Source: a virus. Taken from it: a DNA stretch of 61,545 nt. The stretch lies in the IMG/VR virus record IMGVR_UViG_3300009514_000363, positions 1 to 61,545 of that record. One strand, written 5' to 3'. The notes below the pieces were generated by a model. The model was given only the letters and a program-made list of their open reading frames with translations. It had not been told where the DNA came from and did not search any database. Positions 1 through 31,264 of the stretch are shown here, piece by piece; within the stretch, counting starts at the first letter, position 1, and every line of letters begins with the position of its first letter. The translations under genes were made by a program, and so were the position numbers.

Positions 1-63
1 CGCTAAAAAGAAAAACAGTACTAAGGTTATCGCGCGGCTATAATCTATTCCTTCAATGATCAT
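1..63 (-). CDS. Start of a gene running off the left edge (hypothetical, possibly membrane)
   Basis: An open frame starts with ATG just after the tail-fibre stop codon and stays open to the left edge. The 21 visible residues begin MIIEGIDYS and continue with a hydrophobic stretch (LVLFFFLA), so this could be the start of a small membrane protein. The upstream GGGTAA is only a weak ribosome binding site. No function can be assigned and the reading may be fortuitous. Confidence 0.3.
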   Translation of the reverse strand, partial: MIIEGIDYSRAITLVLFFFLA

Positions 64-68
64 ATCGT

Positions 69-1712
69 TTACCCAACAAAGACAATTGATGCGAATCTAG
101 CATCAACATTTACTTGCTTGTATGGTTCATACAATTTTACTTGACAAGATGTAGTAGACATACCAAACAACCCAGAAGTCTCGTTAGCAAAGGTGGGAAC
201 AATCAATCTTGAATTTGAATCAATAGTAGAAGATCCCATTACAGCATAGTTAGCAGTTGGTAGTGCTGGTGAAAAATGAATAGTAAAATTTCCAACACCA
301 TTGTCGGTGATAGTGGATGTTACATTGGCGCTTTTGGCTATTATTATTGGGGTACCACTGGAAGCATTAAAGGTAACCCAAGCCAAGATTCGGCCAGCGC
401 CGCTTGCAGCACTAACTGCATTATCAACATATGTTTTAGTTGTGGCATCAGAACCCAAAGTTGGTTCTGCCATGGCTGTAATCTTGTTATTAGCCATGTT
501 TAGGTATTTCTGGCCTGCATATTCTGTGAATGATCCTATCGTTGAGGTTGTTGCCCCGACTTTTGAAACCATTGCTATATCGTTTTGACTGGAAGATGGA
601 GTTCGCAGCTGTATATAGGCATTGCCTGTCCCAGCTTTAATATATACAGGATCTGTGTTACCACTGCCTTTTAACCATAGTGTATCAGCTGCAAATTTGC
701 TATTGCTTGACCAGAAGGTGCCAGATGTCGCGACACTTGCTGTAAAATTGGCAACACCCGAAATGTTTTTATTATTAAAAACCATATTGACTTGTGGTTC
801 AATTGCCGATCCCTTGATTTTTAACGTTTCAGTTACCAAGCCACCATTATCTGACATGAACGAAATATAATCTTGGCTCGCACCATTATCTCCCATATAA
901 AGAACAAGACGCGATGATTCAGTACCACCATAACCCTCAACATAAATTCTTGCAAGATCTGTATTTCCTGTCCAGCGAATACCATTAGATTCCGCAACTG
1001 GAGAAGGAATAGTAAAAGACAAATCCGCAGCCAATGCACCACCGACTGCCAATTGCATATATCTACTATCGGCATAACTAAGATTTAAAGCATCGCCTGT
1101 ATCAATAGGATTGGCAACCCCAGCAATTCTATTAGAACCCATATTTAGAATGCCAGACATAGTATCGCCGAACGTATTTACATATGTAGTGTTGGCATAT
1201 CCGAGAGTTACAAGATCGAAGACGCCAATTGGGTTTGCCGCTGTGACCGTGCCGGTAACAACAAGATCACCTGTAATTGCGCCACCCTCGCCGGCCGATG
1301 ACCATTCCAAAGGACTTCCACTATATGTGTACATTAAATTGTTGGTGGTATTGAACCAATTTTGTCCAAGAAACGCGATAGTTATACCATTTCCAGTCCC
1401 TAAGTCGTATTCATCTTTAGGTAAAAGTGGATCAGTTGCCGGATTGTAATCGTAATTTCCTGTGGCTGGATTGTAATCGTTCAACTCTTTTGCTGGACAG
1501 GCATTATTTTCCAAAATTCTGAGAATGTTCTGGTTAATGCCTTCCCCCCACTTGGGTGCACCGAATCCATATAACTTTAAATCTGTGTCGCGCGCGACAC
1601 CACCTGGACCATTAAGTTCGCCCGGACCAATAACGAATGAATTCTCTTCTCTTGCGGCTATATCGCCTCTATCACTGAATGCGGTTCTTTTGATTAAGAA
1701 TGTTTCTGACAT
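69..1712 (-). CDS. Tail fibre / structural protein
   Basis: A 547-residue protein with the modular, Gly/Asn/Thr-rich composition of phage fibre shafts. It has repeated segments of the type LGYANTTYV...GDTMSGILNMGSNRI (about residues 165-205) and NLSYADSRYMQ (about 210-225), plus late recurrences (about 400-435, KYLNMANNKITAMAEP, TKTYVDNAV). These 'M..N+I....P....DA....YVD' units are typical of trimeric fibres of T4-like marine and freshwater phages. The N-terminal about 150 residues are probably the virion-attachment part, and the C-terminus a beta-rich tip that would contact the host receptor. A late-promoter-like GATAAATAG lies 31 nt upstream. Which fibre it is cannot be told from sequence alone. 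Confidence 0.75.
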   Translation of the reverse strand: MSETFLIKRTAFSDRGDIAAREENSFVIGPGELNGPGGVARDTDLKLYGFGAPKWGEGINQNILRILENNACPAKELNDYNPATGNYDYNPATDPLLPKDEYDLGTGNGITIAFLGQNWFNTTNNLMYTYSGSPLEWSSAGEGGAITGDLVVTGTVTAANPIGVFDLVTLGYANTTYVNTFGDTMSGILNMGSNRIAGVANPIDTGDALNLSYADSRYMQLAVGGALAADLSFTIPSPVAESNGIRWTGNTDLARIYVEGYGGTESSRLVLYMGDNGASQDYISFMSDNGGLVTETLKIKGSAIEPQVNMVFNNKNISGVANFTASVATSGTFWSSNSKFAADTLWLKGSGNTDPVYIKAGTGNAYIQLRTPSSSQNDIAMVSKVGATTSTIGSFTEYAGQKYLNMANNKITAMAEPTLGSDATTKTYVDNAVSAASGAGRILAWVTFNASSGTPIIIAKSANVTSTITDNGVGNFTIHFSPALPTANYAVMGSSTIDSNSRLIVPTFANETSGLFGMSTTSCQVKLYEPYKQVNVDARFASIVFVG

Positions 1713-1742
1713 GTTATATCCATCAAATGATTAATTATAAGA

Positions 1743-1751
1743 CTATTTATC
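1743..1751 (-). promoter_or_regulatory. T4-type late promoter motif for tail fibre gene
   Basis: Minus-strand GATAAATAG, one mismatch from the T4 late consensus TATAAATA, 31 nt upstream of the fibre ATG. There is no -35 box, as expected for a promoter read by a phage sigma/sliding-clamp-type complex. Confidence 0.5.
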
Positions 1752-1766
1752 ATGTGCATATAATCG

Positions 1767-2453
1767 TCATAATCCCAATTCAGCTATATATTGCTTCACC
1801 ATTTCCACGTCGTTAGGTTGTTTTTTGAATCTGCGTGTCCAATAATCGGGATTTACAATAGTTTCCATCACTATCTTTTCTTCTGTAGTCGTTCCATTTA
1901 TGTAAAAATAAGCAAATTTCTTACTATTTAACAATATCCATGGGGATAACCGCCGCTGATGTAAGAGTTGTATTACTTCATTTGGTGTTAAAATGGTGAA
2001 CACATCACCAACATCCACCTCGGCAGCGTCTGCAATATCAAACAACGTCTTTATTGTTATTTTGGCTAATTCTTTCGTGGAAAGCTTCCGTGTGACATAT
2101 TCAAGATACTTTCTGTAGGCGGCATCACTTGACCAATAGTTAGGATCTATGCCCGTTCTTACCATTAAGTCTATGAAAACTTTAACATCCGGCATCTGGG
2201 TCTTTTTTACAAATTTTGTGAAATTGTAGAATGTGTTAAAATATTTAGATTTTTTGAAGGCATTGGCAGATGAAACTACGCTCTTATGCTTTAACTTCAT
2301 CCAAGACTTATAATGGTTCCATGCGGACTGTCCAGCAGGAGATTTAAATTCTTCCTCCCGTATCATGTCTTTGCATTTGTGTTTAATAAATCTTACTTCG
2401 GATGTGAACGTTTGACCACAAAAATCACATCTGTGTAGAATTTCTCTTGCCAT
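1767..2453 (-). CDS. Hypothetical protein with N-terminal zinc finger
   Basis: A 228-residue protein. Residues 9-27 hold a C-x2-C-x12-H-x-C arrangement (CDFCGQTF ... IKHKC) that looks like a C2H2/C2HC zinc finger. The rest is charged and mainly helical, with no motif I recognise. It is the last gene of the clamp-loader operon, 1 nt after the putative small clamp-loader subunit, which suggests an accessory role in DNA replication or transcription. That role is inferred from position only. Confidence 0.6.
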   Translation of the reverse strand: MAREILHRCDFCGQTFTSEVRFIKHKCKDMIREEEFKSPAGQSAWNHYKSWMKLKHKSVVSSANAFKKSKYFNTFYNFTKFVKKTQMPDVKVFIDLMVRTGIDPNYWSSDAAYRKYLEYVTRKLSTKELAKITIKTLFDIADAAEVDVGDVFTILTPNEVIQLLHQRRLSPWILLNSKKFAYFYINGTTTEEKIVMETIVNPDYWTRRFKKQPNDVEMVKQYIAELGL

Positions 2454-2454
2454 T

Positions 2455-2931
2455 TCATACCAACCTCGTCTTTAATTCCTTTTTGATCGCAGCAATTTCA
2501 GGCGGCTGTCTACCAAGTTGTTCTGCAAAAGAAAGTATATCATCATTTGAAATCATTGGTAAAACTTCCATGGCATCGACGGTATTGTAATCAAAAAAAT
2601 TTTTAATAACCTCAACAACTTTCGGTGTTTTAGATGTTTTCTTGCTTTTTGCTTTAATGAACTTATAACGTTGATCATGACCAGAACCACACAGTGTCAT
2701 AAGGTCAACCAATAGTTCCTTGTGCTTAGATAGCGTAAAAACAAATGGATTTACAAGTTCATTCAGAAAATAAATTTGCCGTGCATCATTAGTGCCAGAT
2801 AACCAGCGCATTGTGATAAGCGGACTTATTTCTTTGATTTCTTCCTCTGAAAGTGTCTTATAAAACTTTTCGTTCTTTCTACTTACGTTACTTAGGAAGT
2901 TGAATAAATCTAATTTGTATTGTTTAGCCAT
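2455..2931 (-). CDS. 62: Putative clamp loader small subunit (gp62-like)
   Basis: A 158-residue all-helical protein. The central segment (about 38-95: MRWLSG, IYFLNELVNPFVF, SKHKELLVDLM, then CGSG and Y.FIK) resembles the divergent small clamp-loader subunit of T4-like phages, which joins the gp44 ATPase to load the sliding clamp. T4 gp62 is 187 residues. Its place in the same operon as the gp44 homologue supports the call, since 44 and 62 are adjacent in T4; here two hypothetical genes lie between them. Sequence similarity is weak, so this rests on pattern and context. Its start overlaps the end of the preceding gene by 8 nt. Confidence 0.5.
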   Translation of the reverse strand: MAKQYKLDLFNFLSNVSRKNEKFYKTLSEEEIKEISPLITMRWLSGTNDARQIYFLNELVNPFVFTLSKHKELLVDLMTLCGSGHDQRYKFIKAKSKKTSKTPKVVEVIKNFFDYNTVDAMEVLPMISNDDILSFAEQLGRQPPEIAAIKKELKTRLV

Positions 2932-3259
2932 TAGGTACTTTAATACGACGATTACAGAATTTACATTCTACGTAACCATCCTTCTGAATCAAATGTTCAA
3001 AAGGATGGACACAATCCTTAACCATTTCTTGCCGCAACGCTTGTATCTGATCAAGAATTGGTTGTTTTTCATTTTTGATAATACCAAGAATTTTTTCCTC
3101 AACTGGTCTCAATTCTTCAATTAACCTTTCCATATTAACAAGTTTCCGCTTCCATGCGGTCTTTTCACTGCGATCAGCGTGATTTGATATTGTTTCAAAT
3201 AAGAGTCTTTCTTCTGCTTGTTCAGGGGTTTCGTTTTCGGGTTTCTTTCTTCTTGCCAT
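2924..3259 (-). CDS. Hypothetical protein with coiled coil and C-terminal zinc-binding motif
   Basis: A 111-residue protein. The N-terminal two thirds are highly charged and predicted coiled coil (about 15-80). The C-terminus has DCVHPFEHL...YVECKFCNRR, a C-x2-H-x12-C-x2-C set consistent with a small zinc ribbon. The ATG overlaps the stop of the previous gene (ATAA/TG type junction at 3259), so the two are translationally coupled inside the clamp-loader operon. No specific function is recognisable; a nucleic-acid or replisome accessory role is an inference from context. Confidence 0.55.
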   Translation of the reverse strand: MARRKKPENETPEQAEERLLFETISNHADRSEKTAWKRKLVNMERLIEELRPVEEKILGIIKNEKQPILDQIQALRQEMVKDCVHPFEHLIQKDGYVECKFCNRRIKVPNG

Positions 3260-4365
3260 TATTTTACTAACTCCATCGCGTCATCAAAGGCCGATTTTTT
3301 AGGCACTGTATCGGCTTCTTTTTCAAGCGCCTTTGCTATTTCTTTCGGTAATATCATACCACCAAGATCCTTCTTGTCAATTACAAATGATGATGCAAGT
3401 GAAAGTTGTGCTTTCGCCAGTTCGGTTTGGCGCATTGCTTTCATCATATCAGACGGAATCGCCACACTTTTAGCAACCTTGCGTTGAAAGTATTCAAGAT
3501 TTTCTAATGCACTAAGTGCGGTTCGGGGTCTTGTGGCTTCAAAATCAAACGCAATTTGATTTTTGCAACTTTCTTCCGATTTTTCTACTTCATAATATTG
3601 AAGTCTTGCTTTAAGGTCTGCTATAACATTTTTTTGATCTGCAGCCACAGATTCTAAGAATGTATTAACAGACGTGAGTTCCTTAACTTCTTCTTCAAGA
3701 TGTTCTATAGTACCTTTATTTTCAGGTGCACGATAACTAATAGCATCCCAAAACTTACATGAAATTTCGTCCATTTCAACATCACCAGAAATTGTAACAG
3801 TGCCATCAGATTTGACTTCAACCGATGAACCGTTATCGCCTATTATTTGGATCGAGGGTGGGATTGGGTTCGCAGCAGTGAAATATACACCACTATGCAT
3901 GTCCGCCTCGGCAGCCAAACTGTTATAATTATGATTGTAGTTTATATGATTATTGTCTATCACATCATACGCTAAATTATGTCCCACACTTAGTGATTGC
4001 GATGCAGTAGCGCATATACTGTCTATAAGTTGCTTGTCGATTTCATCCCGTATTTGAGTCGCCATTTCATCTGCAATAATATCTTCCATGTTTACTTGAT
4101 AATTATATGTGGGTGTTAGGGACAGGCTGATTGGTTTATCAAGCAAAGCCGTAGCATCGTCTAAATCTTTTTTGGTCATTGTAGATGCAGGGATATTGCT
4201 TGCATTCGAAGTCATAGCGGGTACACTATTAATCATATTTGCGAATGAACATGCAAGGTTTGTCATGCCGAATGGCATGGTAATACTTTCGTGTTCTTCT
4301 TCGGCTTTATTAATTACAGGCAAGAACTTATCAAATTCATCTAAGAAATCTTGGTTTATTGTCAT
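3259..4365 (-). CDS. Hypothetical protein, 368 aa, coiled-coil centre
   Basis: An unrecognised 368-residue protein directly downstream (11 nt) of the gp44-like clamp loader ATPase. The N-terminal half is Asn/Ser/Ala-rich and contains a short beta-rich segment (about 165-195, IQIIGDNGSSVEVKSDGTV) of the kind seen in phage virion proteins. A coiled coil follows at about 220-265. The C-terminus is acidic. The mixture does not match a replication enzyme I know. It could be a structural protein carried in a replication operon. Confidence 0.5.
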   Translation of the reverse strand: MTINQDFLDEFDKFLPVINKAEEEHESITMPFGMTNLACSFANMINSVPAMTSNASNIPASTMTKKDLDDATALLDKPISLSLTPTYNYQVNMEDIIADEMATQIRDEIDKQLIDSICATASQSLSVGHNLAYDVIDNNHINYNHNYNSLAAEADMHSGVYFTAANPIPPSIQIIGDNGSSVEVKSDGTVTISGDVEMDEISCKFWDAISYRAPENKGTIEHLEEEVKELTSVNTFLESVAADQKNVIADLKARLQYYEVEKSEESCKNQIAFDFEATRPRTALSALENLEYFQRKVAKSVAIPSDMMKAMRQTELAKAQLSLASSFVIDKKDLGGMILPKEIAKALEKEADTVPKKSAFDDAMELVK

Positions 4366-12999: not shown

Positions 13000-13300
13000 C
13001 TGATTATTGGGTTACAAGGCATCACCCCCGGGCGGGTTTACGCAGCTAAGCGAAGATCCTCACCATAATATGCATCGTTTGCATTTACTTTATTTTCTTC
13101 GATATTTAACGTGCAGTTGCTTTCACGCACAGTCCTCTTATTGTCTATCCCCTGTCGAACCTATTTCATCCCCATATTCTTTATTATTTCAAAATACTCC
13201 TGTAAAATATCTTTGGAGTCTATCCTATCTAACAATTTGGTGGAGATGGGCGGCTCTGCCTCCGCCGTCCAAAGTTTATATCGTCAGTATCATACTGTGA
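13000..13300 (-). ncRNA. ssrA: Circularly permuted two-piece tmRNA (ssrA)
   Basis: Trans-translation RNA in permuted order. Read on the minus strand: acceptor piece first (about 13300-13238), ending CATCTCCACCA with an encoded CCA at 13240-13238; then a roughly 64-nt intervening spacer; then the coding piece starting GGGGATGAAATAGGTTCGACA at 13173. The 5' GGGGATG pairs with CATCTCC to rebuild a 7-bp acceptor stem whose third pair is G-U, the alanine identity element. A T-arm-like stem GGCGG/CCGCC (13266-13249) precedes the acceptor strand, with a non-canonical loop. The tag reading frame is 13082-13038 and encodes ANDAYYGEDLRLAA then TAA, a classic tmRNA tag ending in LAA/AA. A UUCG terminator closes the gene. 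The exact start of the acceptor piece is uncertain. Confidence 0.9.
13038..13082 (-). other. ssrA: tmRNA proteolysis-tag reading frame
   Basis: GCA resume codon followed by codons for ANDAYYGEDLRLAA and a TAA stop. It begins AND and ends LAA/AA, like the SsrA degradation tags recognised by host ClpXP and SspB. The preceding AGTAAAT fits the region that sets the resume frame. Confidence 0.88.
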
Positions 13301-20383: not shown

Positions 20384-21142
20384 TTATATTATTTCTTCTG
20401 ATGCTATAATCCAAGACTTGACGAATTTGCTTCGAACAATATCATGCTTATTGAATTGAACTGACTCAAATTCCTTCATTTTATCGAAAACTTTAAGGGC
20501 TTCAAGCATTCCTGATGCGCCGTTCTTTTTTCCGTCCAAATCAGTTTGTTTTATATCACCAGTGAAAATAATGCGGGAATTTTCACCAATCCGCGTCATA
20601 ATTGAATCAATTTCATGAAATGTCATATTCTCGCCTTCATCTACTATAACGATTGCATTGTCCCATGTTAAACCACGGATAAATGATGTTGACATAAATT
20701 CTATCAAACCGGCCTCTTTCATATTTTGATATGTGGAGGCCCTGCCCACAAGTTCCCACATTATATCATGATATGGCAATTCATATAGTGCTGTTTTTTC
20801 TTCAAGAGTACCAGGTAGGTAGCCCACATCCCTTGTAGGAACAGCTGAACGAACGATGATTATTTTCTTTTGTCGTTTTTCAATGATTTCATTGATTGCA
20901 AGGAATAGCGCTAAGAATGTTTTTCCAGTTCCTGCGGAACCGCTTGCGCATACATGTTTGTTGTTGTACCAAGCATGGAACATATCTTCCTGTGTTGGTG
21001 TAAGTGGTTGGATTGTTTTAATGTCATGTTTTGACCAATGTTTTCTTTTGTTTCCTTCTTCCATTGCTCTCCCGTTGTGAACTAATGCTAATGATAATGT
21101 TTCTATTTCGGCTTGACGGCCTGTGCGGCGCTTCTTTGCCAT
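20384..21142 (-). CDS. phoH: PhoH-like P-loop ATPase
   Basis: A 252-residue PhoH family protein. Walker A is GSAGTGKTFLAL (about 67-78), then IIIVRSAVPTRDVGYLPGTLEEK (the conserved PhoH signature, about 98-120), Walker B AIVIVDEGENMT and the IIFTGDIKQTDL sensor. PhoH is widespread in marine and freshwater phages; an RNA helicase/RNase role is proposed but not settled. The gene is preceded by GGAGG and a CATAAATAT late-like motif. Confidence 0.92.
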   Translation of the reverse strand: MAKKRRTGRQAEIETLSLALVHNGRAMEEGNKRKHWSKHDIKTIQPLTPTQEDMFHAWYNNKHVCASGSAGTGKTFLALFLAINEIIEKRQKKIIIVRSAVPTRDVGYLPGTLEEKTALYELPYHDIMWELVGRASTYQNMKEAGLIEFMSTSFIRGLTWDNAIVIVDEGENMTFHEIDSIMTRIGENSRIIFTGDIKQTDLDGKKNGASGMLEALKVFDKMKEFESVQFNKHDIVRSKFVKSWIIASEEII

Positions 21143-21205: not shown

Positions 21206-21233
21206 TAAAAAAAGGGCGCTAAAACAGCGCCCT
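21206..21233 (-). terminator. Terminator of the PrkA-YeaH-SpoVR operon
   Basis: On the minus strand GGGCGCT GTTTT AGCGCCC followed by a T7 run; it lies 45 nt after the spoVR stop codon. Confidence 0.85.
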
Positions 21234-21277: not shown

Positions 21278-22816
21278 TCAATCATCTTCCTCCAAGAAAA
21301 TATCAAGAACAGTTTCATCATTCATAATATCATATATGGCTCTAACATCTTCCTCTGTATTAACAGATTCAAGTCTGACTTTATATCCCCACAAATATGA
21401 TATATAACGCAAAGTGTCAGTGGTCGATTCAGAATCCAAAGGGCGTTTATTGACCATATAATGGCGTAGGGTCAACGAACGATCGCCCCATCTGTCTACA
21501 TTATATACTTGAATATCGGGTGTGTGATATCCTATATTGTACTGTTTTGACAATGCATCACGTACTATCTCATAACCCTGCGTATTATGAATGCCACTAA
21601 TAAGCAATTTGGGATCTTGTTCATCATCATGGACAGTAAACATTCTGAAATCTCGAATTACTTTTGGTGATAAAAACTGCTTAATAAAACTTTCGTCTTT
21701 AAAGTTTTCAACTGCCCATTTCACATTCTTTAACCAATCACCATTCCCAACCCATTCTTGATGTGAAAACCACTCATAATCTTCATCTGTCGGGTTCATA
21801 GACACCCGTTCAATATCTTGGTACATAGCAAAACCAAGTGCATATGGATTGATTCCACTAAAATATTTATCATCGAAATCGCGCTGATTAATTACACCAG
21901 TATGTGAAGCATAGAATTCAAGCATAGCACCATCATCTAAAATTCCTTTATCATATAAATCATGTACAATTTTATGATGAAAGAAAGTAGCACATCCTTC
22001 ATTCATTATTTGTGTTTGGCGCTGTGGATAGAAATATTGTGAAATCTTTCGTATGATACGAATTATTTCGCGTTTCCAATCTTCTAAACGAGGAGCATTT
22101 TTTTCAATGAAATAAAGTATGTTTTCGTGTGGAGCTTTTGGAAAACGCTCTTCTTTAATTTCTTGTGCTTCATCTTTAGTATTAGGGATAGTTTTCCAAA
22201 TATCATTCAGCTGTGATTGAATATATGCTTCTCGTTCTTTTCTAAGCTCTTCACTTTTTTCAAAAGAAAGCTTATCTGGATGTTTATATTTGTTTACACC
22301 ATATTGTTGCAGTGAATGAGCTGCGTCAATTACAGCCTCAACTTCATCCAAACCATATCGTTCTTCACAATCACGAATATACTTTTTAGCAAACATAAGA
22401 TAATCAATGATACCATCTGCATCTGTCCATTGTTTAAATAAATAGTTATTAGCAAAGAAATGATTGTGTCCAAATGACGCGTGCGCAATAACCAATGCTT
22501 GCATCATCATAGTATTCTCTTCCATTAGATATGCAATACATGGATTGGAATTAATAACGATTTCATACGCCAATCCCATTCGGCCGCGCTTGTAAGCTTC
22601 TAATTCTTTGACGAATTGTTCACCAAATGACCAGTGTGGGTAGTATAATGGTAATCCAACAGCAGCATATGCGTCAAGCATTTGCTCAGAAGAAATTATT
22701 TCTAGCTGATTGGGATAATAATTTAGACCATATTTTTCGTCAGCGATTTTTTGGATTTCAAGATAGATTTGTTCTATCTTATCAAAATCCCATTCTTGTC
22801 CTGATGTAATTTTCAT
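21278..22816 (-). CDS. spoVR: SpoVR family protein (YcgB-like)
   Basis: A 512-residue SpoVR/YcgB protein; E. coli YcgB is 510, so full length. Family features are the Y.P...E.I...QML.AYA..GLP..Y.HW.FG start (about 28-62), the ...MEENTMMMQALVIAHASFGHNHFFANN segment (about 97-123) and the QYNIGYHTPDIQVYNVDRWGDRSLTLRH C-terminal segment. The molecular function is unknown. In bacteria spoVR is co-conserved with prkA (yeaG) and yeaH, and here it is the third gene of exactly that trio. TGA overlaps nothing downstream and a strong terminator follows. Confidence 0.9.
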   Translation of the reverse strand: MKITSGQEWDFDKIEQIYLEIQKIADEKYGLNYYPNQLEIISSEQMLDAYAAVGLPLYYPHWSFGEQFVKELEAYKRGRMGLAYEIVINSNPCIAYLMEENTMMMQALVIAHASFGHNHFFANNYLFKQWTDADGIIDYLMFAKKYIRDCEERYGLDEVEAVIDAAHSLQQYGVNKYKHPDKLSFEKSEELRKEREAYIQSQLNDIWKTIPNTKDEAQEIKEERFPKAPHENILYFIEKNAPRLEDWKREIIRIIRKISQYFYPQRQTQIMNEGCATFFHHKIVHDLYDKGILDDGAMLEFYASHTGVINQRDFDDKYFSGINPYALGFAMYQDIERVSMNPTDEDYEWFSHQEWVGNGDWLKNVKWAVENFKDESFIKQFLSPKVIRDFRMFTVHDDEQDPKLLISGIHNTQGYEIVRDALSKQYNIGYHTPDIQVYNVDRWGDRSLTLRHYMVNKRPLDSESTTDTLRYISYLWGYKVRLESVNTEEDVRAIYDIMNDETVLDIFLEEDD

Positions 22817-24096
22817 TATGATTCTCTTTTCTCAAACAGACCCCTAAAAACTGGGTAAATTTCCGTGATATTATTAATCACAGCCAGTTGCATATTCTTA
22901 AATTCGCCCTTTAATGCTTCATAGTATGGCCACAAATCACTTTCGCCGCCTGCGCGATATTGATCGACTTCAATATATGCAAAATATTGACTTTGTGGTA
23001 AAATATACTTTCTCATAATATCACATGCTTCGATATTATCATGTCCCCAGTTATCCCCATCAGAAATCTGACATCCAAAAATATTCCACTGTGCTATAGG
23101 GTATCTTTCTGAAATGATTTCTTTCATCAATTGTAAAGCCGATGATACAATGGTTCCACCAGTTTCCCGCGAATGAAAAAATTCATCTTCATCAACTTCA
23201 ATAGCACGTGTATGATGACGTATCCAAACTATATCAACCCGTTCATAATTATAATGTAAAAATAAAAGCATTAACATGAAGAAACGTTTTGCCATTTCTT
23301 TTTCCCATTCTCCCATACTTGCAGATACATCCATAATACCGAACATAACTGCTTGTGTAGTAGGCATAGGAAATTTTTCCCAACGATTATAACGCAGATC
23401 CATGTCATCAAGGAATGGAACGGCTTTAATCTTACGCTTGAGTGTATTAATTTCATCGTTCAATTCTTCAATGCGCGGCATATTTTTTTCAATAACTTCA
23501 AGCGATGCAAGTTCTTCCATAAGAAGTTTTAATTTTTTCTTCTTAGGTGAACGAATTCCCAAGCGCCGGCCTTTAGCGCGCTTCATTGATTGTAAGATAT
23601 TTAAACGACTCGGATTACCATCTACAGAAAACCCCGCTCTACGATTTTCAAATTCTTCAATTTTAGCAATATCTTTCTTAACCATATCTGGCAGTTCAAG
23701 ATCTTGAAAAAACAAATCAAGAAATTCTTCTTTTGTTAGATGAAAAGAAAATTCATCTTCACCTTCACCATCTGGTGTGCCTTTTCTTCCGCCTGATCCC
23801 CCACCTTCTGGTGGACGGTCTTGACGATCTCCTTGGTTAAATTTTTTATTTCCAGGCGCAACAAAATCTTTAACGCCGCCTGTTTTATCATGATGGAATG
23901 TTGGTTGGTTTAATCCCTTTCCAGGGATCTTAACTTTCTTTTCTTTACTATTAATGATATCACCAACGCTACCATCGCGAATAACGTCTTTAACAGCGTC
24001 ACGAACTTGTTGTTTGACACGCTTTACAAAACGACGACGGTTATCAGTACTTTTGCCTTTATCGTTTTTTCTTCGGTCAATAATGATATGTGCCAT
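22816..24096 (-). CDS. yeaH: DUF444 / YeaH-like protein (VWA-type)
   Basis: A 426-residue protein from the ATG at 24096 (MAHIIIDRRKNDKGKS), chosen because GGAG lies 7 nt upstream; the frame itself reaches 24129. E. coli YeaH is 427. It has the basic N-terminal domain with RRRFVKRVKQQVRDAV, the Gly/Asp-rich low-complexity stretch (about 100-140), and a C-terminal von Willebrand A-like metal-binding core with FGIMDVSASMGEWE and later ETGGTIVSSAL. It ends 1 nt from the spoVR start. Reported to act with the kinase PrkA in stress responses of E. coli. Confidence 0.9.
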   Translation of the reverse strand: MAHIIIDRRKNDKGKSTDNRRRFVKRVKQQVRDAVKDVIRDGSVGDIINSKEKKVKIPGKGLNQPTFHHDKTGGVKDFVAPGNKKFNQGDRQDRPPEGGGSGGRKGTPDGEGEDEFSFHLTKEEFLDLFFQDLELPDMVKKDIAKIEEFENRRAGFSVDGNPSRLNILQSMKRAKGRRLGIRSPKKKKLKLLMEELASLEVIEKNMPRIEELNDEINTLKRKIKAVPFLDDMDLRYNRWEKFPMPTTQAVMFGIMDVSASMGEWEKEMAKRFFMLMLLFLHYNYERVDIVWIRHHTRAIEVDEDEFFHSRETGGTIVSSALQLMKEIISERYPIAQWNIFGCQISDGDNWGHDNIEACDIMRKYILPQSQYFAYIEVDQYRAGGESDLWPYYEALKGEFKNMQLAVINNITEIYPVFRGLFEKRES

Positions 24097-24120
24097 ATGA
24101 ACTCCTAAATTATTAATAGT

Positions 24121-24141
24121 GGGGAGCATTGCTGCTCCCCT
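24121..24141 (-). other. Intercistronic hairpin between prkA and yeaH
   Basis: GGGGAGCA..TGCTCCCC hairpin with a TTGC/GCAA loop (24121-24140), about 25 nt before the yeaH start, and without a clear T-run behind it. It probably acts in RNA stability or in setting the ratio of the genes rather than as a full terminator. Confidence 0.55.
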
Positions 24142-24148
24142 TGTACTA

Positions 24149-26101
24149 TTAGTTATTCTTAGTATACCGCATATACCATTCTACTGCCAATCTGACCTGC
24201 TTCTGGGTATATCCTTTGTCCATCATGCGACGAACAAAATCGTTGTGTTTTTCTTCCTCTTCGGCGGTGGATTTAGTATTGAAAGAAATAACTGGAAGAA
24301 GTTCTTCTGTGTTAGCAAACATCTTCTTCTCGATGACTTCACGCAGCTTCTGATAACTCTTCCAATCTGGGCTTTCGCCATTATTGTTTGCTCTTGCACG
24401 AAGAACAAAACCAACAACTTCATTACGGAAATCTTTCGTATTTGTAATGCCTGCAGGCTTTTCCATTTTTTCCAGTTCGGAATTCAATGATTCACGATTA
24501 AACATACTACCTGTATCTGGATCGCGATAATCTTTGTCTTGAATCCAAAAATCAGCATACTGAATATATCTGTCAAATAAGTTCTGACCATATTCATGAT
24601 ATGATTCCAAATATGCCTTCTGTAATTCATCGCCGAGGAATTCTGCGTATTTCGGTGCTAAGATGCCTTTAATGAAAGTAATACGCTCTTCTTCCTGTTC
24701 GGGTGGAAGTTGTTCTTGTTGAATCTGTTTACCCAACACATACATTAAGTGAATTGGATTAGCAGCAACTTCTTCTGAATCATAGTTAAATACTTTAGAC
24801 AGAATCTTGAATGCAAAGCGCGTAGATGAACCATCCATTCCTTCGGAAACACCCGCAACTTCCTGATATTCATCCAACGATTTAGCCTGTGGATCTTTAT
24901 CTTTCAAGTTCTTTCCGTCATAAATTTCCATTTTCGAGAATAGTTTGCTATTTTCCGGTTCAATCAGGCGGGTCAGTACAGAATACTGCGCCATCATTTC
25001 AATTGTACCTGGCGCGCATGGTGCTTCTGCAAGGTCAGAAGCTGAAATTAACTTTTTGTAAATTTCGGCTTCTTCTGTAACACGCAAACAATAAGGAACC
25101 TTAACGATATAAACACGGTCAAGGAATGCTTCATTGTTCTTGTTGTTACGGAAAGTCGTCCATTCAGATTCGTTAGAGTGGGCAAGAATAATTCCTTGGA
25201 ATGGAATAGCACCAAACTGTTCAGTGCCATTGTAGTGTCCTTCTTGTGTAGCAGTCAATAATGGATGAAGCATTTTAATTGGGGCTTTGAACATTTCCAC
25301 AAATTCCATGATTCCCTGCGTGGTAACATTTAAGCCGCCGGCCCAATTATAGGCATCTGGATCATGTTGTTCATGGTCTTCCAATTCGCGGATATTAACT
25401 TTACCAACCAATGCAGAAATATCTTGGTTATTTTCATCGCCCGGCTCAACCTTAGTTATGCCTACCTGTTTCAGGATAGAAGGCCAAACCTTAACAACTT
25501 TAAATTTGGTAAGATCACCATCTGCTTCTTCGAGGCGCTTTACTGCCCATGGTGATATGATATGTTTAAGATAACGGATGGGAATGCCATATTCCTTATG
25601 CAACTCTTCCCCATCTTCTGTCGGCGAAAAAACATTTAACGGAGATTCGTAAATTGGTGAAATCTCCCACTTGTCGATTTCTTTGTTATAAGCCTTCAAT
25701 GCGTAAATAGGGACATGCTGCATCAGTTCTTTGAGTCTTTCAGATAAGGAAGACTTACCGCCACCAACAGGACCAAGCAAATAAAGAATTTGCTTTGACT
25801 CTTCTAAGCCCTGTGCAGCATGTCGAAAGAAAGCCACAATCTGTTCAATGGTTTCTTCCATACCATAAAAATCAGAAAATGACGGATAAACTTTAATTTT
25901 GCGATTTATAAAGATTCGACTTAGGCGATCATCTTTGCGCGTGTCAACGATTTCTGGATCGCCGATTGCCATTAACATCCGTTCCGGTGCGGTGGCGTAA
26001 TAGCTTTTATTATCTTTGCAGCCTTCAAGATATTCTTTGATTGACATCTCTTCAGCTTGTCTTACTTCATAGCGTTGTTGATACTTAGAAAATATGCTCA
26101 T
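24149..26101 (-). CDS. prkA: PrkA serine protein kinase / AAA+ protein (YeaG-like)
   Basis: A 650-residue PrkA; E. coli YeaG is 644, so full length. The AAA domain contains Walker A LLGPVGGGKSSLSERL (about 107-122), preceded by FSDFYGMEETIEQIVAFFRHAAQGLEE. A C-terminal PrkA domain follows, with FKAPIKMLHPLL, KMEIYDGKNL and the EGMDGSSTRFAFKILSKVFN block. It is the first gene of a prkA-yeaH-spoVR operon read from a TTGACA-17-TATAGT promoter. PrkA/YeaG works as a stress- and starvation-linked kinase in bacteria; some evidence suggests Lon-like AAA protease activity. Having the whole trio in a phage is unusual. Confidence 0.93.
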   Translation of the reverse strand: MSIFSKYQQRYEVRQAEEMSIKEYLEGCKDNKSYYATAPERMLMAIGDPEIVDTRKDDRLSRIFINRKIKVYPSFSDFYGMEETIEQIVAFFRHAAQGLEESKQILYLLGPVGGGKSSLSERLKELMQHVPIYALKAYNKEIDKWEISPIYESPLNVFSPTEDGEELHKEYGIPIRYLKHIISPWAVKRLEEADGDLTKFKVVKVWPSILKQVGITKVEPGDENNQDISALVGKVNIRELEDHEQHDPDAYNWAGGLNVTTQGIMEFVEMFKAPIKMLHPLLTATQEGHYNGTEQFGAIPFQGIILAHSNESEWTTFRNNKNNEAFLDRVYIVKVPYCLRVTEEAEIYKKLISASDLAEAPCAPGTIEMMAQYSVLTRLIEPENSKLFSKMEIYDGKNLKDKDPQAKSLDEYQEVAGVSEGMDGSSTRFAFKILSKVFNYDSEEVAANPIHLMYVLGKQIQQEQLPPEQEEERITFIKGILAPKYAEFLGDELQKAYLESYHEYGQNLFDRYIQYADFWIQDKDYRDPDTGSMFNRESLNSELEKMEKPAGITNTKDFRNEVVGFVLRARANNNGESPDWKSYQKLREVIEKKMFANTEELLPVISFNTKSTAEEEEKHNDFVRRMMDKGYTQKQVRLAVEWYMRYTKNN

Positions 26102-26184
26102 AGTAACCTCTTTAAATTTGTCCTGTTGGTATCACTGTATAATTACTTCTGTTGGTATCTTTATGTAATTAAACTGTAGCTAAT

Positions 26185-26213
26185 ACTATATAACAGAAAA
26201 CTTATACTGTCAA
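26185..26213 (-). promoter_or_regulatory. Sigma70-type promoter for prkA-yeaH-spoVR
   Basis: Minus strand: TTGACA (26213-26208), a 17-nt spacer, TATAGT (26190-26185). A roughly 80-nt leader follows and ends in AGAGG before the prkA ATG. Confidence 0.75.
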
Positions 26214-26231
26214 GATTTAATACTATTTTAA

Positions 26232-26801
26232 TTATTTTGTTTCCATAGTATTAAGAATTTCACGTTCTTTATCAAGGTCACGATTGATTGCATCTTTCGA
26301 TGTAAACTTATTAGGATACCTTGCTTTTAGTTTCTTAATAACCGCATCAAGTATTGTAACCCAATTAATATTTAGTTCATCGCAACCAATTGCCTTATAC
26401 CAATCAATATCACCAAATTCTTCTGCGATATTAATATTATCCATATTTGCGGCGCTGGTATCAAGTGCTTCTAGCAGTTCTGTTGCTTCTGTTGATATTC
26501 CAACAATAGAATGGAATAGGCGTGGATTGATAGCCAACGCAATTTCATCATTATTAATATCATCTAATGGAATACCACTAAGTTCACGAATAGCATAACC
26601 CAATTGAACATTATGTTCTAAAAATGCTTCAATATTATATGGTTTATTATAAAATACATGTTTTTTTATTTGATCAAGAATGTTACCGGAATGTACTAAA
26701 ATATGGATGGTTTGAATGAGAAGTTTTTCATTAACTATTACAGCATCAATTCTACTTTCAGTTTTAATTGCGTCCTCAACGAACTGGTTTAACTCTGACA
26801 T
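26232..26801 (-). CDS. MazG-like nucleotide pyrophosphohydrolase, second copy
   Basis: A 189-residue protein from an ATG at 26801 with AAAGGA 7 nt upstream. An EATELLEAL (about 110) and EEFGDIDWYKAIG (about 128-140) pair supplies the ExxE/ExxD metal ligands of the MazG fold. The end, IKKLKARYPNKFTSKDAINRDLDKERE, is the typical tail of phage MazG-like proteins. It differs from the shorter MazG-like protein at 16679. It follows tRNA-Arg and shares its leader sequence with the gene upstream. Confidence 0.75.
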   Translation of the reverse strand: MSELNQFVEDAIKTESRIDAVIVNEKLLIQTIHILVHSGNILDQIKKHVFYNKPYNIEAFLEHNVQLGYAIRELSGIPLDDINNDEIALAINPRLFHSIVGISTEATELLEALDTSAANMDNINIAEEFGDIDWYKAIGCDELNINWVTILDAVIKKLKARYPNKFTSKDAINRDLDKEREILNTMETK

Positions 26802-26843
26802 ATTATTATCCTTTATTGTTATTATATGATATAGATATATTAG

Positions 26844-26916
26844 CGCCCTTAGCAGGATTCGAACCTGCACTTGACTTCTTAGGAGGAAGCCGCACTTCCT
26901 ATTATGCTATAAGGGC
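26844..26916 (-). tRNA. tRNA-Arg (anticodon CCT)
   Basis: 73-nt cloverleaf: acceptor GCCCTTA/TAAGGGC (7 bp), D-arm TAGCATAATAGGAAGTGC, anticodon loop CTCCTAA with anticodon CCT, T-arm GCAGG-TTCGAAT-CCTGC. No CCA is encoded. It reads AGG, and reads it without wobble. It lies between two genes of the same operon. Confidence 0.92.
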
Positions 26917-29313: not shown

Positions 29314-29360
29314 GGTAATTCCTATGTTATAAACGTATATATCATTGGTACAGAAATTGG

Positions 29361-29435
29361 TGCCTGCGGCGGGATTCGAACCCGCGCGGACAGGAATTTA
29401 GAGTTCCCCGCTCTGACCAGCTGAGCTACGCAAGC
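29361..29435 (-). tRNA. Amber suppressor tRNA (anticodon CTA)
   Basis: 75-nt cloverleaf with acceptor GCTTGCG/CGCAGGC (one G-U pair), D-arm GCTC-AGCTGGTCA-GAGC, anticodon stem GGGAA/TTCCT with loop CTCTAAA (T33, anticodon CUA, A37) and T-arm GCGGG-TTCGAAT-CCCGC. No encoded CCA, discriminator A. The anticodon reads UAG. Its amino acid cannot be read from the sequence with confidence. Confidence 0.85.
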
Positions 29436-30369: not shown

Positions 30370-31264
30370 GATGGTCATTAAAATGTAAGGCTGAGATTAC
30401 ACCATTACGACTTGTACCTTCGAGCCATTATCCCATCCCCTGCGACAGTTAGGGTTCTGCTCTTATCCACACCCTCATGGGCGTCTACAAGCATGACTGC
30501 CTTTTTTAAAGTGTGGCGATTCACTTATCATGTAAAGCTATTCAAAGTTTCATCTACCGTCAATCCTATCGGACTACAAAGGGTTCGACCCCACCGTGCG
30601 ACTCCGCTTTAACATCATCCGCCTTGCGGGTTTCAGATGACTACATTCACCGAAGTGTGTAGTATTAAGCCATTTTCACTTTACACTGGACGCGTCTTTG
30701 CGTTTTTATTTAAAAGATAGTTGGAATCGAACCAACAGTCTTCTGCTTTAGAGGCAGATGCCGTTACCGTTTGGCTATATCTAACTAGCAATGATGTGCG
30801 CGCCCAGTAGGTTTGTAATCTTTTGAATTACAAAATGCTACACACCACGTATCTTTCTCCTGCCGGATACTCGACCGTCTTTCAAGATCATTGGGTAGCT
30901 TTTAATATACTACCCGACAACCTATCAAACTGGAATAGCGCCCTTAGTTGCAGCTTCGGACTATCTATTCCTACCCTTTATCCCTCGTGGTTCGCACTAT
31001 TGGTTGTCGTTTGGAGATGGCTACCAACCATTCTTCACTGACTCGTGTTCCCTGTGCACCCGAAGGTGAACACAGGCACTTAAACCAGCATTCTTTCCCA
31101 AACTAGCGCTTCGCCATTACGTCCAGCGCTCTTATCACTGAACGACCCTTACGGGCAGGATGAGGCTTGCATTAGCGTACCTGCGAGCAGGCGATGGTTA
31201 AGCTAGATCCCCATCTTTCCCCTTGTTACCAAGGCTTATGACCTAATGCGTCAATTCTTAAAGT
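30370..31264 (-). ncRNA. Large structured non-coding RNA (about 0.9 kb, tRNA embedded)
   Basis: A region of about 900 nt without a credible minus-strand gene, transcribed from two tandem sigma70 promoters. Many stable helices are visible: CCTTG-GTAA-CAAGG (31234-31221), a long-range 7-bp helix GCATTAG (31249-31243) with CTAATGC (31175-31169), CCC-GTAA-GGG, an AGCGCT/AGCGCT helix, CCTGTG..CACC-TTCG-GGTG..CACAGG (near 31050), TTTGTAAT/ATTACAAA (near 30822) and CAC-TTCG-GTG (near 30655). GNRA and UUCG loops recur. An 8-bp helix CTGGGCGC/GCGTCCAG (30807-30800 with 30693-30686) encloses the tRNA at 30712. Size, phage/tRNA context and embedded tRNA recall GOLLD-type RNAs, but I cannot confirm the class. 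Ends are approximate; the 3' end is set by the bS21 gene. Confidence 0.75.
30712..30784 (-). tRNA. Embedded tRNA-Gln-like amber suppressor (anticodon CTA), mismatched acceptor end
   Basis: Read on the minus strand, TAGCCAAACGGTAACGGCA is the D-arm region of tRNA-Gln (compare TATAGCCAAGCGGTAAGGCA). Anticodon stem TCTGC/GCAGA with loop CTCTAAA gives anticodon CUA; T-arm GTTGG-TTCGATT-CCAAC. The acceptor stem is odd: TTAGATA against TATCTTT pairs only at positions 3-7, with U-U at 1-72 and 2-71. No encoded CCA. It may be a pseudo-tRNA domain of the surrounding ncRNA, or a tRNA whose 5' end is repaired by the Thg1-like enzyme. The nearest identity is Gln, as in E. coli supE. Confidence 0.8.

Follow-up and report, generated by a model that had tools for sequence, protein, structure and literature searches.

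The prkA-yeaH-spoVR trio is widespread in bacteria and its mechanism is contested, published claims on the kinase and protease activities of PrkA being in conflict. In Halomonas, Marinobacter, Vibrio, Massilia and other bacteria the three genes form an operon; in Escherichia coli the unit is yeaGH, with ycgB, the spoVR homologue, encoded apart. In E. coli starved of nitrogen, YeaG works jointly with YeaH as a 'metabolic brake' (PMC10954441, PMC4664914); in this species control of yeaGH by NtrC/sigma54 and by sigmaS has been reported, and K426 of YeaG is required for the effect of this protein on growth recovery. In Bacillus anthracis, PrkA belongs to the AAA+ proteins, is required for sporulation and under osmotic stress, and shows hardly any kinase or protease activity (PMC13001217). 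The name SpoVR goes back to the formation of the spore cortex in Bacillus subtilis (Beall and Moran 1994, cited in PMC4605624), and spoVR, the most abundant sporulation-type auxiliary gene in marine oxygen minimum zone viromes, has been read there as a sporulation gene (PMC8940887).

Parts of the trio have also been annotated in phages. The isolated Ralstonia jumbo phage RsoM2USA (343,806 bp), which belongs to the XacN1-related group and has a latent period of 270 min, was described in 2021 with SpoVR as ORF28 and PrkA as ORF30, SpoVR being placed by its authors under replication/cell cycle (PMC8504454). ORF29 is unlisted in the published annotation, by which the comparison was made, and the 1.35 kb gap fits YeaH; the phage appears to have the same families in the same order as the locus described below. 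The Thermus phages phiYS40, TMA, MN1, Lalka and phiLo carry PrkA, vWA-like and SpoVR genes close together, annotated in phiYS40 as SpoVR and a serine kinase with the vWA-like gene adjoining. A view of the trio as a module, always of three genes, in several phage lineages and with its own promoter in one clade, was not found among the open-licence PMC texts searched.

The DNA analysed here, referred to as the window, is a virus fragment of 61,545 bases from IMG/VR that encodes a phage clamp loader, helicase, primase, RNA ligase and DNA polymerase. Its DNA polymerase and PhoH are closest to those of Xanthomonas jumbo phage XacN1, Stenotrophomonas CM1 and RAS14 (44–53% identity), and we assign the window to a jumbo phage related to XacN1. 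On its minus strand lie, contiguously and in the order PrkA, YeaH, SpoVR, three uninterrupted reading frames: prkA (24149–26101, 650 aa), yeaH (22816–24096, 426 aa when started at the ATG at 24096, the longest frame being 437 aa) and spoVR (21278–22816, 512 aa). The stop codon of yeaH shares one base with the start codon of spoVR (TAATG), an arrangement that suggests coupled translation. Pfam matches covered the proteins over essentially whole domains, namely AAA_PrkA (PF08298, 8.5e-169, positions 1–357 of 358) and the PrkA C-terminal domain (PF06798, 8.8e-66, positions 2–255 of 255) in PrkA, the vWA-like DUF444 (PF04285, 3.2e-157, positions 1–417 of 418) in YeaH, and SpoVR (PF04293, 1.3e-162, positions 1–405 of 407) together with SpoVR_C (4.7e-24, positions 1–54 of 55) in SpoVR. 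The first-pass annotation of this DNA had claimed three full-length genes in the bacterial order, and on both counts it was right. Families and order are those of the bacterial operon, to which identity is 67–69% for PrkA, about 55% for SpoVR and 44–50% for YeaH; the phage version differs in forming a clade of its own, in having all three genes linked and in its sigma70-type promoter.

This promoter (TTGACA-17-TATAGT, 26185–26213, minus strand), upstream of prkA, matches the consensus at 11 of 12 positions and scores highest among the 33 promoter-like sites of the region. Since shuffled sequences gave 29.2 such sites, the total is not above chance, and what supports the promoter is where it lies and that relatives have kept it. 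Among the clade members with upstream sequence, the window included, seven of nine had a near-consensus sigma70-type site within 200 bases upstream of prkA, in the same form despite diverged surrounding sequence, compared with 4 of 67 other viral loci and 1 of 124 bacterial loci. With 0.045 sites expected per 200 bases, a rate taken from the window itself, the binomial probability of seven in nine was 1e-8, which is too small a value because the relatives were treated as independent. A sigma54-like site was found upstream in none of the nine clade members, by a pattern so insensitive that only 5 of 124 bacterial loci matched it. By its form the promoter would be of the sigma70 type, a preference for sigma70 or sigmaS not being securely readable from sequence. 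Between promoter and prkA start, the 5' leader carries GATACCAACAG as an exact repeat at a spacing of 26 bases (26123–26159, minus strand), a possible regulatory site; the pair was not conserved, being absent as such from the relatives. Downstream of spoVR, an intrinsic terminator (21213–21233, minus strand) consists of a 9-pair stem, AGGGCGCTG-TTT-TAGCGCCCT, followed by a T run (z = −3.9), and stem-loop-T tracts were seen by eye 3' of spoVR in most relatives. The consensus promoter and strong terminator proposed from the first inspection were both upheld.

The next minus-strand gene downstream (20384–21142) encodes a PhoH-like ATPase by Pfam and lies outside the trio transcription unit; synteny showed it to be a conserved neighbour, found about 5–6 kb away from the start of prkA in each of the nine relatives (L002–L010). 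Directly upstream of the operon is a MazG-like gene (26232–26870, minus strand; Pfam 5e-4, below the curated cut-off), a neighbour kept in most relatives. The closest relative, the uncultured IMG/VR contig 3300021514_000002 (363,531 bp; L002/G001), shares 89, 86 and 86% identity in the three proteins and has the same neighbours, without the leader repeat; it and other contigs of trio-bearing relatives carry a T4-type portal and terminase.

Phylogenies of each protein, which the first-pass annotation had called for, placed the window and L002–L010 in one phage-only clade in all three trees, with SH-like supports of 1.0, 0.997 and 1.0 (FastTree) and of 100, 98 and 100 (IQ-TREE) for PrkA, YeaH and SpoVR, respectively. 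A gamma/beta-proteobacterial group was sister to this clade in the PrkA (support 88) and SpoVR (support 96) trees. The clade is about as deep as its bacterial sister, which implies either an old acquisition or faster evolution of the phage genes. PrkA identities to four relatives (G001, G002, G004 and G007: 89, 82, 79 and 75%) ranked these phages as did their DNA polymerases (83, 65, 63 and 61%), indicating co-inheritance. The trio is under purifying selection, dN/dS being 0.03–0.08 where dS, which was near saturation, could be estimated, and degraded reading frames in related genomes, which would have spoken against the original proposal, were not found. The single clade, the kept neighbours and the dN/dS values point to a single ancient acquisition and to inheritance of the three genes together, and the phage-only clade with its kept phage neighbours marks the trio as phage-borne and not recently captured. 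A single origin for all phage copies was unsupported: bacteria lie between the viral groups, and the 'viral_other' category needs four changes on the PrkA tree.

An alignment-based scan of IMG/VR yielded PrkA relatives on at least 262 contigs, and scans with the window PrkA and with SpoVR at least 128 and 191 loci, respectively, these scan counts being lower bounds that rest on short peptide patterns. Where enough flank was available, the whole trio lay on one strand at 53 of 54 PrkA-anchored and at 69 of 69 SpoVR-anchored viral loci (the two sets share contigs), the sole exception looking enterobacterial. At the nearest bacterial loci the trio was together in 46 of 76, and the remainder were mostly Enterobacterales. 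Because IMG/VR may contain misclassified bacterial DNA, the case for carriage by phages is based on contigs that have portal or terminase genes and on named phage records. Among the latter, the huge phages LR745206, LR756502, LR756504 and LR756511 (595–642 kb) have all three families on a separate branch; in LR756502 (L163/L170) about 245 kb separate SpoVR from PrkA-YeaH, so the trio need not be contiguous. The Thermus phages form another separate lineage, with about 25–32% identity to the window and the order vWA, SpoVR, PrkA. The records of XacN1, CM1 and RAS14 (320–385 kb) gave no PrkA or SpoVR match, and the module is thus dispensable in the wider phage group. The first-pass annotation knew of no well-described phage with the trio and had proposed a search of virus databases, with wide occurrence in phages counting against it; as RsoM2USA, phiYS40, the huge phages and hundreds of IMG/VR contigs carry it, its complete phage-borne operon stands, whereas the claim of rarity among phages fails and the window is not exceptional.

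Three candidate carriers were rejected. Enterobacter phage LAU1 (L162, MN688132), a lambda-like record annotated as phage, has yeaG and yeaH at positions 1–3308, at its linear end, probably as host DNA at a prophage border. IMG/VR contig L011 (= L310), with PrkA-YeaH and without SpoVR, is probably enterobacterial, and Bacillus phage CM1 had a vWA match only.

Key residues of the three families were retained. The Walker A motif of PrkA (GPVGGGKSS, residues 110–118) was mostly invariant in the alignment, and K432, present in 27 of 27 sequences, falls in the alignment column of K426 of Citrobacter YeaG; published work gives the E. coli residue this number too. A sequence search matched PrkA to the solved relative 9xip at 2e-70. 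The top matches of the PrkA model were AAA+ unfoldases and Lon-like proteins at weak scores (best E 0.003, none at E ≤ 0.001), so that the predicted fold weakly resembles AAA+ unfoldases; no protein kinase was among the top 50 of these weak matches. In YeaH, D256-x-S258-x-S260, T315 and D346, invariant in 39 aligned sequences, have the layout of a vWA MIDAS metal site as read from the alignment. Invariant motifs of SpoVR were AHAxxGHN (H112, H117, N118) and NEGxAxxxH (E273, H280). As the SpoVR model (mean pLDDT 80) gave no significant match to a known fold in a Foldseek search of the PDB, a metal-enzyme centre, as suggested by these motifs, would be only a guess. Sequence searches found no solved relatives of SpoVR or YeaH.

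Inteins are often located in functional centres. In two relatives, SpoVR inteins with a Cys start and a His-Asn end before Cys were inserted exactly at NEG|C, which hints that the NEGxAxxxH site may be the active centre. The longer one (about 400 aa) lies in IMG/VR contig L009 (14120–15330; also L306), and a mini-intein of about 125 aa in the 636-kb huge phage LR756504 (L165, 17360–17735). A group I intron in the L009 spoVR gene was considered and rejected, there being no Rfam hit and the insert reading through in frame as an intein. Another intein-like in-frame insert of about 250 aa, also with a Cys start and a His-Asn end, was seen at residue 51 of SpoVR in L271 (6147–6904), L276, L319 and L332.

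Our tentative reading, to which we give a little less than even credence, is that the trio would constitute a phage-controlled stress or quiescence machine transcribed from a host-type promoter. The XacN1/RsoM2USA-related lineage would have gained a complete proteobacterial-type operon in a single event far back in time and have maintained it as one transcription unit, from whose own near-consensus sigma70 promoter host RNA polymerase could transcribe the trio without starvation signals, probably early. The three products would most likely act as one machine, in which PrkA may supply the ATP-driven AAA+ motor, YeaH may dock the targets as a vWA/MIDAS adaptor, and SpoVR, with its conserved His/Glu centre, may be the third, obligatory part; that phages keep the three genes linked under strong selection argues for such joint action. 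In infection, we infer, this machine would run a phage version of the bacterial stress/quiescence or 'metabolic brake' response, keeping the host in a condition that withstands a long infection cycle. As an old and maintained unit in hundreds of viral sequences, the trio probably helps large phages to manage their hosts, and the role first suggested for it, managing a slow or stressed host, appears the most plausible. Against a brake, it may be said that this role derives from E. coli, in which the gene for SpoVR/YcgB lies away from yeaGH, and that a phage might need an active and not a quiescent host. Trio copies in lytic phages offer deletable versions for testing the mechanism. In a wider form, which we consider possible but doubtful, the trio would be a recurrent core module of several large-phage lineages that are not related to each other (XacN1-related jumbo phages, a second T4-like jumbo group, 0.6-Mb huge phages and Thermus phages). 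These phages would use it to force a quiescent or stress state under their own control on the cells they infect, and in one lineage or more the module would have escaped the starvation control of bacteria. If this is true, the module would be a strategy of general use to phages with long infection cycles, its genes having so far been labelled singly as 'sporulation' or 'kinase'.

Other functions can be envisaged for the same genes. An AAA+ engine paired with a vWA adaptor, as in MoxR/vWA pairs, and the likeness of PrkA to AAA+ unfoldases would suit a remodelling or quality-control machine acting on phage proteins or in the assembly of large virions instead of on host physiology, and the module does recur in phage records of 363 kb, 342 kb, 323 kb and 634–642 kb. 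We nevertheless regard this as unlikely, as the smaller Thermus phages MN1 and Lalka (69–77 kb) have a divergent set, the promoter of the window clade is of the type used by host polymerase, and the bacterial module is tied to stress; we know of no assembly role for the bacterial PrkA-YeaH-SpoVR module. The spore-cortex role of SpoVR could instead point to a change in cell envelope or peptidoglycan during infection, for example to delay lysis or exclude other phages. This seems improbable, given that no peptidoglycan-hydrolase fold was found for the SpoVR model in the Foldseek search against the PDB and that the closest relatives come from non-sporulating gamma/beta-proteobacteria, an affinity that also calls into question the common sporulation reading of viral spoVR.

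More improbable still is a role of the trio in countering or imitating the defence or stress regulation of the host, for instance by sequestering the targets of a host PrkA system. The hosts of this phage group (Xanthomonas, Stenotrophomonas and Ralstonia) are proteobacteria, of which about a quarter (49 of 200 sampled) had a PrkA homologue, but all key ATPase and vWA residues are kept, and a decoy would not need them. That the trio is a recent functionless passenger or a misassembled bacterial fragment has a negligible chance of being correct. Host genes can be captured at the ends of phage records, as yeaGH in LAU1, and L011/L310 has an enterobacterial look; for the locus in the window, the idea is refuted by phage neighbours kept on both sides in many independent assemblies, by the phage-only clade and by the low dN/dS.

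Elsewhere in the window the TAG stop codon was rare, ending 3 of 76 tiled reading frames, and two tRNAs with a CUA anticodon were predicted on the minus strand (29358–29435 and 30711–30785). A code with TAG readthrough was rejected despite these tRNAs, as no long reading frame in the window had an in-frame TAG. The second tRNA lies inside a GOLLD RNA (Rfam RF02032; 30388–30848, minus strand), which scored 210.6 bits against a cut-off of 150, and a permuted tmRNA (RF04321) was matched at 13038–13299 on the minus strand with 94 bits against a cut-off of 47.
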